Below, piece after piece: positions 32,493 through 38,095 of a DNA stretch of 46,528 bases; position 1 is the stretch's first letter, and each line of letters opens with the position of its first letter. The notes beneath the pieces were generated by a model. The model saw only the letters and a program-made list of their open reading frames with translations. It searched no databases and was not told the origin of the DNA. Location of the stretch: positions 1 to 46,528 of the forward strand of contig JALOLT010000005.1 in NCBI GenBank assembly GCA_025455775.1, read 5' to 3'. Source of the stretch: Fimbriimonadaceae bacterium. GTDB lineage: Bacteria; Armatimonadota; Fimbriimonadia; Fimbriimonadales; Fimbriimonadaceae. The position numbers and the translations under genes were made by a program.

Positions 32493-34334
32493 ATGGACTC
32501 GATGCTCTGTGACTCAGGAGCCTCGGGGTTATTCGCCGAGCAGTTGGGCTGGGAAAGGCTTCCTGGTGGTGATTTTTTGGCCGGCGAGTGGATCGCCTCT
32601 GCCGATAGGTTGCCAGGCGAAAAAGTCATCCGAATCTGTGAATCGGATGACGAAATTACTCTGACTTGGAGCCCAAGGTCGGGGGATCGAATTCTGACCT
32701 GTTCCTTGCGTGATCCCCATCCCTACCTTCTCGCTCGCCTCGGGAATCTTTCTGCCAAATCGGGAAAGGATCCTCAGCCAGAAACAGCCTTCGGGATCGA
32801 GTCTCTCTACCGGCGGTTTGGGATGGAGGCAGCTGCTTTTCTTGAATCCCATCTTGATTGTGTGGTGCCCCTTGTCGGCAAATCCTTTCACAGCCGTACT
32901 TCGACCGAGGACGTTCGCGATTTTCTTCAGCGTTGCCTCAATCGCCTGATCCTTCTCAAGCTCCTGAGCTCGGTTGGCTTTATCCGCCTCGAAGGGACCG
33001 GTGATTATCTGACCGATTTGTATTCGAAGTGGCAGTCCGATGGCAAGACCCAACTTTTTCACCAGAGACTTTCGCAGCTTTTTTACAATGCTCTCGGAGA
33101 AGGAGACGCCAAGGCCCGCGCCTACCTGGAGCCAGTGATCGGCGAGGTTCCGTTTTTGGGAACCTCGGGCTTTGGGGAGAGAATTCTCAAATCCGACGCG
33201 GCTCTTTTGCACCAAGCCTGTGTTGTGCAAGACACTTTTTACGAAAAGCTCCTGGCTAAGAACGGCTTGCTTAACCGCTATCCCTTCAAGCTGGTGCCGC
33301 CCTCGCTCTCCCAGTTCGTCGGCCTGACTCCTCAAGTGCTGGCGTCTGCTTTTGATGTGATGGTCGACTTCCACGAAGGGGCAGAAGCTGCCGCCCATCC
33401 AGTGCAGCTCTTTGCAACAGCCCAAAGATCTGTGTGGGAACACCTGGGCCACAACCCCCAAGAGTCGCTCGGGATTCGCCAGGCGCGGGCCCTCCTACTC
33501 AAGCTAGAAAACTTGCAATTCGTCGATCAAAACAGTCGTGGGGGTGGGAGTCTCGTCGCCCTTCTGGGCGCCTTGATCGAAGCTCACCAGGTGATTTCGC
33601 GCTTTGCCAAGGTGCCTCACCACTCAGGGCAAGTCGCCCGCAGGCTCCTCAAATCGTCCTTGCAGGCATGGACCAGAAATCTCTACGCAGGTCAGCTCTC
33701 GACTCACGCCCTCGTCCAAACTCTGCTTTCGTTTGACCAGGGGCAACCGGATCCGATCCCTGATGTTGGCGGGATGGTTCGGCTGGGCCTGGCCCTGAAC
33801 CTCCAAGCGGAAGCGACGACGATTCCAATCCCTGCTCTCGAAAATGAAACAACGGAGTTCAAGTCCACCTTCGATTGGGATGCCAGACAAGGGAAGCGTC
33901 AGCCTGAAAGAGCTTTGGCCTGTCTGAAAACCATCGCTGGGTTCCTCAATAGCCAGGGCGGAACCCTCTACATTGGGATCGATGACAAAGGGCAAGTGGT
34001 CGGTATTTCCGAGGAGCTGAACCAGATTCGAGACCCAGGGCCAGAAGACATCTTCGAAGGGCGCCTGCGGGAGGCTATGAAGAACACCCTCGACCCTATT
34101 CCCCTGAGCTTGGTGACGATATCCTTTCCCCAGCTCTTTGGAAATCCTGTGTGCCGTGTCGATGTCAAGCCGCGTCCCACTGTCACCTACCTGATGCGCA
34201 AGGATGAACGGACTGGGCAGCATTTGGAGGAGGTTTATGTCCGCGACGGACACAGAACCTTGAACCTGAAAGGGCGACAACGGGATCACTTCGTTTTGAG
34301 CCGCCTCTCGACGCCTGATTCTCAGCCAGAATGA
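32493..34334 (+). CDS. AlbA_2 (Schlafen-type) protein fused to a decayed type IIG/PglX-like methyltransferase region
   Basis: A 613-residue protein. Residues about 140-290 follow the helical N-terminal region of Eco57I/PglX-type enzymes: DFLQRCLNRLILLKLLSSVG, LFYNALGEG, PFLGTSGF, NGLLNRYPFKLVP, VGLTPQVLASAFDVM. At 340-360, LENLQFVDQNSRGGGSLVAL stands where methylase motif I (D-P-A-C-G-S-G) should be; at 395-436, NLYAGQLSTHALVQTLLSF and PIPDVGGMVRLGLAL mirror the next methylase strands. No NPPY motif exists. Residues 450-600 form an AlbA_2 domain: ENETTEFKSTF (ExxxxExK), AGFLNSQGGTLYIGIDDKG and the end VYVRDGHRTLNLKG. The ATG at 32493 has AGGA before it. An HD hydrolase follows 4 nt later. The AlbA_2 part is firm; the rest is by eye. 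Confidence 0.75.
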   Translation: MDSMLCDSGASGLFAEQLGWERLPGGDFLAGEWIASADRLPGEKVIRICESDDEITLTWSPRSGDRILTCSLRDPHPYLLARLGNLSAKSGKDPQPETAFGIESLYRRFGMEAAAFLESHLDCVVPLVGKSFHSRTSTEDVRDFLQRCLNRLILLKLLSSVGFIRLEGTGDYLTDLYSKWQSDGKTQLFHQRLSQLFYNALGEGDAKARAYLEPVIGEVPFLGTSGFGERILKSDAALLHQACVVQDTFYEKLLAKNGLLNRYPFKLVPPSLSQFVGLTPQVLASAFDVMVDFHEGAEAAAHPVQLFATAQRSVWEHLGHNPQESLGIRQARALLLKLENLQFVDQNSRGGGSLVALLGALIEAHQVISRFAKVPHHSGQVARRLLKSSLQAWTRNLYAGQLSTHALVQTLLSFDQGQPDPIPDVGGMVRLGLALNLQAEATTIPIPALENETTEFKSTFDWDARQGKRQPERALACLKTIAGFLNSQGGTLYIGIDDKGQVVGISEELNQIRDPGPEDIFEGRLREAMKNTLDPIPLSLVTISFPQLFGNPVCRVDVKPRPTVTYLMRKDERTGQHLEEVYVRDGHRTLNLKGRQRDHFVLSRLSTPDSQPE

Positions 34335-34338
34335 GGTC

Positions 34339-34899
34339 ATGATTCTCGCCGAAGCCATCGAGCTGATGGAGTTTCACACGCCAAGCGAATCCCTTCGCCG
34401 CCATATGAGGGGAGTGGCAGCATGCCTCGCTTCCTATGCCGAGAAATTCGGTGAGGATAAGGAGCTGTGGCAAGTTGTCGGTGTGCTCCACGATTTTGAC
34501 TATGAACTCCACCCAGACGAACATCCTTTGTGGGGCATGGCTCACTTGGAGAGTCTCGGAGTTGACCCAGTGGTGATTCGCGCAGTTGCAAGCCACTATC
34601 CCGAAAAGACTGGGGTGATTCCAACCTCTCTCCTAGAGAGATGTCTCTTCGCCTGCGATGAGCTCAGCGGTTTCGTCACGGCTGTCACCTATGTGCGGCC
34701 AAGCCGGAGCATCCACGAGGTGGAAGTCAAAAGCGTGCTTAAGAAGCTCAAGACCCCTGCTTTTGCTGCAGGGGTCAACCGCGATGATGTCACGCGAGGG
34801 TCTGAGCTTCTGGGTGAACCCCTTGAGAACCATATCGAATTTGTGATTCAGGCCTTGAGAGGGCGAGCCGAAGAGCTGGGGCTCGCGGGAAACCAGTAG
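34339..34899 (+). CDS. HD-domain (HDIG-type) hydrolase
   Basis: A 186-residue metal-dependent phosphohydrolase. The first His is in SLRRHMRGVAACLASYAEKF, the HD pair in VVGVLHDFDYELHPDEHP, and another His in VIRAVASHYPEKTG; the downstream Asp is in LFACDELSGFVTAV. This is the HDIG/YedJ-like arrangement, whose members act on nucleotides or phosphoesters. The C-terminal half, with LKKLKTPAFAAGVNRDDVTR, is characteristic of the group found in many phyla. It starts 4 nt after the AlbA_2 gene and is almost certainly cotranscribed; whether it is functionally tied to it is inference. Confidence 0.88.
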   Translation: MILAEAIELMEFHTPSESLRRHMRGVAACLASYAEKFGEDKELWQVVGVLHDFDYELHPDEHPLWGMAHLESLGVDPVVIRAVASHYPEKTGVIPTSLLERCLFACDELSGFVTAVTYVRPSRSIHEVEVKSVLKKLKTPAFAAGVNRDDVTRGSELLGEPLENHIEFVIQALRGRAEELGLAGNQ

Positions 34900-36988: not shown

Positions 36989-38095
36989 TCAGTCCTGGTA
37001 GTGGGTCAGCCAGGCCTCTGTGTGGGAGTGTCTGTAGCGGCTGAGGCCTGGGGCCAGTGAGGAGCCTTGCCCGAGCAAATGGTGACCAAGGGCCTGGGAG
37101 AACAGAACCGGAACCGCGTTCCCGACCAATCTGTATTGAGTTGCGAGGGAGCCTGAGACCCACCAATCGTCCGGCAAGGTTTGCAGTCGCTTGTATTCGC
37201 CGATCGAGAGGGGACGGAGCTCTTCTGGGTGGGCCAGGAGAGTCGCTGGCATCGTGGGGCTCGTCACCAGAGTTGGGCTTGGGTCATCCCAGGCGAGCCT
37301 TCGATAGAATCCCACCCTTCCTCCTGAGGCCTGAAAAGCTCCTCCCAGGGCTTCCCTTTGCCGTTCGCCTGGCAGTGAGCGCCAGTTCTGACCAGGGCCG
37401 AGGAGGGGAAGAAATTGGGCTTGCTTGGGTCTGAGTGGCAGAGAGTCTGACTCGGCGAGACCCTCGACTGCTTGCCGGAAGGTCCTTTTCGATTCAGTCG
37501 TGCGCCCGATCAATTCGACCGGTTGGCCTTGGTTCGCGATGAGGATGAAGCGCTCTCTGTGTTGCGGAACCCCATACCAGGCTGTGTCATAGAGGCCAAA
37601 CGAGGTCTTATATCCTTCTTGGTCAAGTCGGCTCAGGATCAGTTTGAGTGCTCCTCCTGGTTGTTCCTCTTGGGTTTGGGGGCGATCTTTTCTTTCCTTG
37701 TGGGGTCGGTGGGAGAGGGGAGATGAGAGGAGGCCGCGTACGTTTTCGATGACGATGAGGCGGGGTTTGAGGTTGAAGGCAAGGTCTAAGAAATGGAGAA
37801 AGACGTTGCCGCGCTCGTCGTTTAGGCCTTGCCGGTTGCCAGCGGTTGAGAATGCCTGGCAGGGGGGACCCCCTACGACGAGATCCACCTGACTGAACTG
37901 GAAGTGTTGTCGGAGGTCAGAGGCCTGAAAGCACCGGATATCTCCTGCGAGCAGGGAAACGTGAGGACAGTTGTGGGAGAGGGTGGCGAGACAGTGGGGG
38001 TCTCGCTCTATGGCCCCTAGGCAAGTCCACCCTGCTCTTTCAAGTCCGTGATCGAGTCCGGCGATCCCGGAGAAGAAGCTGAGGAAGGTAGGCAT
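36989..38095 (-). CDS. DNA (cytosine-5) methyltransferase, apparently solitary
   Basis: A 368-residue C5 methylase. Motif I FFSGIAGLDHGLERAGW (SAM binding), the acidic residue in AIERDPHCLATL (II), VDLVVGGPPCQAFSTAG with catalytic Cys (IV), LIVIENVRGLLSSP (VI), YGVPQHRERFILIA (VIII), a target-recognition region at about 230-290 with RRLAWDDPSPTLVTSP at its end (IX), and QYRLVGNAVPVLFSQALG (X). All catalytic motifs are intact. Specificity cannot be read from the sequence. No restriction endonuclease is adjacent: it is flanked by a Fic remnant and a palindromic repeat, and ftsY is divergent. Either an orphan methylase or the survivor of an R-M system. Confidence 0.93.
   Translation of the reverse strand: MPTFLSFFSGIAGLDHGLERAGWTCLGAIERDPHCLATLSHNCPHVSLLAGDIRCFQASDLRQHFQFSQVDLVVGGPPCQAFSTAGNRQGLNDERGNVFLHFLDLAFNLKPRLIVIENVRGLLSSPLSHRPHKERKDRPQTQEEQPGGALKLILSRLDQEGYKTSFGLYDTAWYGVPQHRERFILIANQGQPVELIGRTTESKRTFRQAVEGLAESDSLPLRPKQAQFLPLLGPGQNWRSLPGERQREALGGAFQASGGRVGFYRRLAWDDPSPTLVTSPTMPATLLAHPEELRPLSIGEYKRLQTLPDDWWVSGSLATQYRLVGNAVPVLFSQALGHHLLGQGSSLAPGLSRYRHSHTEAWLTHYQD

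Follow-up and report, generated by a model that had tools for sequence, protein, structure and literature searches.

The locus

The window, by which we mean the whole stretch of 46,528 nucleotides analyzed here, is chromosomal and carries flagellar genes, csrA, ribF, the gene under study, a gene for an HD-domain hydrolase, lhgO (L-2-hydroxyglutarate oxidase), dcm (a cytosine methylase) and ftsY. Read as an open reading frame, the gene under study starts at an ATG that is preceded by AGGA at a distance of 5 nt and that gives the 613-aa product; an alternative start, TTG 32475, would give a product of 619 aa. Both halves of the frame have a codon usage like that of the neighboring genes. Because the HD gene starts 4 nt after the stop codon and a GAGG sequence overlaps that stop codon, the two genes are probably co-translated. 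The dcm-type gene, a cytosine-5 DNA methylase, lies between lhgO and ftsY at window positions 36989-38095, and no restriction enzyme was recognized beside it.

Table 1. Features of the gene under study and of its neighbor, and related loci elsewhere
Feature	Position	Strand	Basis or remark
Whole protein gene	32493..34334	+	613 aa; dead, truncated type IIG-like methylase body followed by an AlbA_2 domain
N-terminal part, residues 1-90	32493..32762	+	loosely aligned with the N-terminal region of type IIG relatives; pLDDT mostly 41-75
Helical spacer as in MmeI/PglX, residues ~95-300	32775..33392	+	hhalign E 1e-38; structure match to MmeI and PglX
SAM-binding half of Rossmann methylase fold, residues ~340-435	33510..33797	+	secondary structure of both models; VIA matches to MmeI, CamA and PglX
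Degenerate motif I (VDQNSRGGGSL), D345 kept	33522..33554	+	DPACGSGAYL in type IIG relatives
AlbA_2 (Schlafen) domain, residues 450-606	33840..34310	+	Pfam PF04326; model matches SAMD9 tRNase domain and SLFN14
E450 and E455 of the acidic triad (ENETTEFK)	33840..33857	+	aligned with TESTHVEFK of SLFN14
D498, third acidic residue (IGIDDKG)	33984..33986	+	aligned with IGVDDK of SLFN14
HD-domain hydrolase	34339..34899	+	Pfam HD 3.5e-9; starts 4 nt past the stop of the AlbA_2 gene
Vsr-like genes (named by eye from sequence)	L033:8544-8972, L034:10620-11069, L037:8732-9163, L053:6378-6824, L174:2109-2534		
PLD-SNF2 and full-length type IIG-AlbA_2 loci	L041:7302-15076, L040:7674-14758, L043:8577-15710, L064:459-7444, L076:213-7441, L063:501-7954		

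Methylase-like body and AlbA_2 domain

The 613-aa frame combines one half of an N6-adenine methylase of the MmeI/Eco57I/PglX type with an AlbA_2 domain. Pfam recognizes only the latter (SLFN_AlbA_2, residues 450-590, E 1.6e-16, and 1.3e-17 in a second scan), and the remainder was identified through relatives. No NCBIfam or PADLOC model matches the protein, and Pfam, NCBIfam and PADLOC hold no named family for a methylase body combined with AlbA_2. A single-sequence query of genome contigs gave no match, and an alignment query did. In searches of related genomes the homologues fall into two classes, short forms of ~420-650 aa and long forms of ~1000-1300 aa. The long homologues bear Eco57I/MmeI methylase domains, most of them with a recognized TaqI-type specificity domain, and some end in AlbA_2. 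In a profile-profile comparison (hhalign), the short forms (n=14) matched the long forms (n=8) with an E-value of 1e-38 over residues 95-435 of the window protein, and as a match between profiles this is far beyond chance. When the protein is aligned with intact type IIG enzymes (MAFFT), the segments RLILLKLL, VPFLGTSGFG, GLLNRYPF, LTPQVLASAF, VDQNSRGGGSL, LQAW and PIPDVGGMVRLG take up, in this order, the places of RLLFLAFL, GPYLNGGLFH, GLFRQYNF, VDPEMLGKIF, VDPACGSGAYL, IYGV and PLPNLDFKIETG.

Structure models lead to the same family. A first AlphaFold model, built from 18 sequences, had a mean pLDDT of 81.7; since three of its rows were type IIG enzymes, a second model of residues 90-445 was built from short forms only as a test of circularity, and reached a pLDDT of 84.1 and a pTM of 0.84. 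MmeI is the best match of both in VIA-align (Z 16.4 over 287 residues for the first, Z 17.3 over 289 for the second), followed by other N6-adenine methylases, namely CamA, PglX/BrxX, PacII and BsaXI. Foldseek gave only weak E-values for the second model, the best being 3.1e-3 (PglX), in contrast to the VIA-align Z of 17.3 to MmeI. What both models keep is exactly beta1-alphaA-beta2-alphaB-beta3. The Rossmann part ends after beta3, and everything from beta4, the carrier of NPPY, onwards is absent together with the target-recognition domain (TRD). AlbA_2 comes next, beginning at residue 450, some 14 residues past the last aligned methylase residue, with no TRD of the type IIG kind. At the other end, where an N-terminal PD-(D/E)xK nuclease of a type IIG/IIL enzyme would be sought, residues 1-90 are modeled with low confidence.

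The body therefore resembles MmeI (type IIL/IIG, PDB 5hr4) in its helical spacer and in the first half of its Rossmann fold, but differs from it in lacking the NPPY of motif IV and the TRD, in its broken motif I and in ending with AlbA_2; identity in the structural alignment is 13-14%. Its fold is also like that of PglX/BrxX of BREX (8q56, 9ewz; Z 10-12), although the catalytic and specificity parts are missing, no BREX genes lie nearby and the genome has no PglZ. Membership in a BREX system was accordingly rejected, given the neighbors ribF, HD, lhgO, dcm and ftsY and the absence of pglZ from the genome.

Erosion of the catalytic motifs is common to the short forms, in differing degrees. In the window protein DQNSRGG at residues 345-351 stands in place of the DPACGSG of type IIG enzymes, and motif X (YTP) is gone. 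No NPPY occurs in the window protein or in its 16 short relatives, and none of the 17 short forms compared has motif X, NPPY or a TRD. Motif I ranges across the 17 from intact (of the CGTG type) to absent, and [DE]xxCGxG is kept in G030, G090, G003, G006, G015 and G088. The window protein can neither methylate nor recognize a DNA site in the way its likely parent did.

The AlbA_2 domain is apparently intact in sequence, with its E/E/D triad. A HMMER alignment sets E450, E455 and D498 against the corresponding segments of SLFN14, whose catalytic residues we take to be E206, E211 and D249 (E211 also appears in PDB titles). This part of the model matches the SAMD9 tRNase domain and the Schlafens with Z of about 9-13. 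The likeness to SLFN14, SLFN13 and SAMD9 thus lies in the fold and in the aligned triad; the window protein differs from these RNases in that one bacterial AlbA_2 lobe is attached to a methylase body, and its own RNase activity is putative. E450, E455 and K457 are nearly invariant among 14 short forms, and the third acidic residue is present in 14 of 17, one of the three others lacking the glutamates as well. Identity of the window protein to its short relatives is 35-57% in AlbA_2 as against 15-28% in the body for 15 of the 16, and 26% as against 14% for the remaining one, G002a.

These results bear out the observation made in the first-pass annotation as a whole, and its interpretation in part. 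It had described a type IIG/PglX-like body with the segment order of Eco57I/PglX-type methylases, and the MAFFT alignment, the profile match and the structure matches to MmeI and PglX agree. A Rossmann methylase fold, of which the SAM-binding half is left, does lie within residues 320-440, and residues 140-440 match no unrelated family, the two points on which that reading could have failed. The broken motif I and the missing NPPY were rightly noted, although the position needed mending, as motif I begins at D345. So was the replacement of the catalytic end by an AlbA_2 domain that is intact, supported by Pfam and structure, with the triad now specified as E450, E455 and D498. The term “dead methylase” holds for catalysis; it does not hold for a whole dead domain, as both models retain no more of the Rossmann fold than its SAM-binding half.

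The short-form family, its setting and its full-length relatives

The short forms make up a monophyletic family with at least 17 members, all of those seen here being from the Fimbriimonadaceae (Armatimonadota). In a phylogeny of the methylase part, a branch with support of 100/99 separates the 17 from the other sequences; several branches are long, which leaves the order within the group uncertain. The design was confined to Fimbriimonadaceae in searches of 291 Armatimonadota genomes and of genome contigs, plasmids, phages and viral contigs; other members of the phylum have frames of comparable length, some of which may be cut short by a contig end. Among relatives with named records, the closest belong to Fimbriimonadia or Armatimonadota, and the same loci derive from genomes assigned to the family of the window's genome. 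The plasmid and phage records searched held no near relatives, and viral contigs gave three matches, to the AlbA_2 part only. The genome of the window (98.45% complete) contains neither a second relative of the 613-aa protein nor any other AlbA_2 protein. One genus has still shorter relatives of ~360 aa, in which the body is barely recognizable.

In paralogue pairs from two close genomes, dN/dS was 0.04-0.16 in the three pairs with finite dS, the body being included where computable; these values are rough because dS is large and near saturation. As far as such comparisons reach, the short family is under purifying selection and has been eroded to different degrees. At L036:1633-7263 (G002) and L039:7812-13435 (G032), a tandem array of three divergent short paralogues separates the IMP dehydrogenase gene from dnaE. 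Paralogue G002a has an intact frame but has lost the AlbA_2 glutamates that the neighboring paralogues retain, a difference that might point to a hetero-oligomer. In G032 the corresponding paralogue is apparently split across two frames.

The short form is a conserved chromosomal gene. Among 22 genomes compared that have the AlbA_2 gene, 12 have it directly upstream of an HD gene on the same strand, at 5-72 nt by match coordinates; these 12 are not independent, because they represent only four genera and one genus accounts for seven. The HD gene is found in 55 of 85 genomes of the family, and hence it also exists without the AlbA_2 gene. Since it does so in many genomes, and since the two genes are not adjacent in 10 of the 22, their pairing may be inherited synteny. 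The gene order S9 peptidase-(vsr)-short form-HD-lptC-like is common to several genera, and one genome has S9-vsr-HD without the short gene. In the interval from the S9 peptidase to HD, a Vsr-like gene often adjoins the short gene or occupies the site that the short gene has left vacant. Armatimonadetes bacterium Uphvl-Ar1 carries, at L077:6437-8019, an AlbA_2 protein of 343 aa whose N-terminal part is shorter, and HD follows directly.

The recurrence next to HD hydrolases that the first-pass annotation had proposed to check is thus real, but the link to defense that it had drawn is not supported, given the housekeeping neighbors, the synteny across genera and the lack of near relatives on plasmids and phages. 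Nor does the genome itself support this link. No Eco57I methylase was found in it; a search for PglZ gave no match while its controls were positive; and one PLD-SNF2 helicase query, run without a positive control, found no match there, nor was such a helicase present among the neighbors. A role in defense is possible for the short form; its genomic context gives no support for one.

The first-pass annotation had also thought the fusion a new architecture. The fusion does recur, but joining AlbA_2 to such a methylase is more widespread than the dead form, with full-length versions in several phyla. Long type IIG proteins with a C-terminal AlbA_2 (~1250 aa) occur in Fimbriimonadales, Desulfobacteraceae, Blastocatellia and Solibacteraceae. 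Both the catalytic half and the TRD are retained in these proteins, with a literal NPPY or NPPF in all but the Solibacteraceae protein, and a PLD-SNF2 helicase gene, for which the best PADLOC name is HKD+Snf2, adjoins the methylase at 13 of 13 long-form loci, with or without AlbA_2. At one of these loci the gene for a second, separate AlbA_2 protein of 294 aa (L041:7302-8186) has a one-base overlap with the end of the type IIG-AlbA_2 gene. The long-form loci look like ATP-dependent restriction systems, and the two-gene loci of PLD-SNF2 and type IIG-AlbA_2 may represent a restriction system not yet described that has incorporated a Schlafen-type domain, which might act there as a backup RNase. 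They share with BREX-related (BR) type 2 systems (PMC12839542) an HKD(PLD)-SNF2 helicase combined with an N6-methylase; that assignment was not adopted, as no DUF499 or DUF3780 gene was recognized in ORF lists and partial Pfam scans. No paper joining “Eco57I” and “Schlafen” was found in the literature searched, a body that excludes preprints and most subscription journals.

Full-length type IIG-AlbA_2 proteins (those in Table 1) are likely the parents of the short forms. The window protein has their domain order and is homologous to them over residues 95-435 and in AlbA_2, but has neither the catalytic half, the TRD nor the helicase partner. Short forms are not nested among long ones in the AlbA_2 tree, so that what favors a route by internal deletion is the domain order, and no intermediates with NPPY kept and the TRD lost were found. 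Alternatively, a C-terminally truncated methylase may have been joined to a stand-alone AlbA_2 gene. We consider this quite conceivable, although we would bet against it: the AlbA_2 tree separates short from long forms, and stand-alone AlbA_2 genes of the short type exist (e.g., L057, 171 aa), but the order and C-terminal place of AlbA_2 are identical in long forms of several phyla, and truncation plus fusion takes two steps.

Function and significance

We propose, with a probability of about 0.55, that the window protein is a domesticated remnant of a restriction enzyme, in which an AlbA_2 nuclease or RNA-binding protein sits on a dead methylase scaffold. The ancestor would most likely have been a type IIG-like methylase of full length that ended in AlbA_2 and was partnered by a PLD-SNF2 helicase. 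In the Fimbriimonadaceae the stretch from motif IV through the TRD would then have been deleted, leaving the SAM-binding half against AlbA_2, and motif I would have eroded afterwards. AlbA_2 would be the conserved working part, which probably binds nucleic acid and probably cleaves RNA such as tRNA, although many AlbA_2 proteins have the acidic triad and some of them are perhaps only nucleic-acid binders. In SAMD9L, the triad is needed for both the antiviral and the translation-blocking effects (PMC11221667). The methylase body would serve as a scaffold, that is, a regulatory, dimerizing or nucleic-acid-binding platform, and the HD hydrolase probably acts in the same pathway. The fold, the loss of the motifs, the family, the selection and the linkage to HD are results of the analysis, and from these the route by deletion, the RNase activity and the parts played by the body and by HD are inferred.

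The protein might instead be a housekeeping regulator whose AlbA_2 is a non-cutting DNA- or RNA-binding domain that controls the operon or the HD protein, the body providing dimerization or a response to a ligand. This is possible, if on the unlikely side. It would suit the housekeeping site, the synteny across genera and the absence of adjoining defense genes; a survey of prokaryotic Argonautes (pAgo; PMC6299218) treats AlbA_2 as a DNA-binding domain, and paralogue G002a has an intact frame without the triad. A non-cutting domain is harder to reconcile with a third acidic residue kept in 14 of the 17 short forms, and with closest solved folds that include the SAMD9 tRNase domain. A further reading, that half of a Rossmann fold still binds SAM and reports to AlbA_2, draws on the six members that retain [DE]xxCGxG, but in the window protein this motif has become DQNSRGG and motif X is gone, and other members have lost the region entirely; we hold it to be very improbable. 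Least credible of all is a decaying restriction-enzyme pseudogene, to which the eroded motifs and the stepwise shortening to ~360 aa in one genus could point. At least 17 open frames of like design with a conserved AlbA_2 argue against decay, and the idea was rejected on the purifying selection seen in both halves where measurable and on the ordinary codon usage.

There remain the readings that involve immunity. An anti-phage effector, in which an AlbA_2 RNase is released once the dead methylase has sensed foreign DNA or an anti-restriction protein of a phage, would fit descent from restriction-type enzymes and a body that changes fast relative to the AlbA_2 domain, and Schlafen RNases are listed as backup effectors in a BREX survey (PMC12839542). 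We nevertheless think such a role unlikely, since there are no defense neighbors, no near relatives on plasmids or phages and no PADLOC match for the window protein, and the chromosomal position is common to several genera. Only a little less doubtful is a broader version, an immune or stress switch of one protein (or of two genes, with HD) that arose from a gutted restriction enzyme and was kept chromosomally in much of the family, its dead body sensing DNA, an anti-restriction protein or SAM and so gating a Schlafen-type RNase.

If the domesticated-remnant reading is right, the Fimbriimonadaceae have turned a restriction enzyme stepwise into something else: site reading and methylation would have been lost, half of the cofactor fold would have been kept as a frame, and the attached Schlafen-type domain would be the part best preserved by selection. 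The full-length relatives suggest, in addition, that some restriction systems carry an AlbA_2 domain of the RNase type on their own methylase, which, if true, would couple DNA recognition to RNA damage within one chain.
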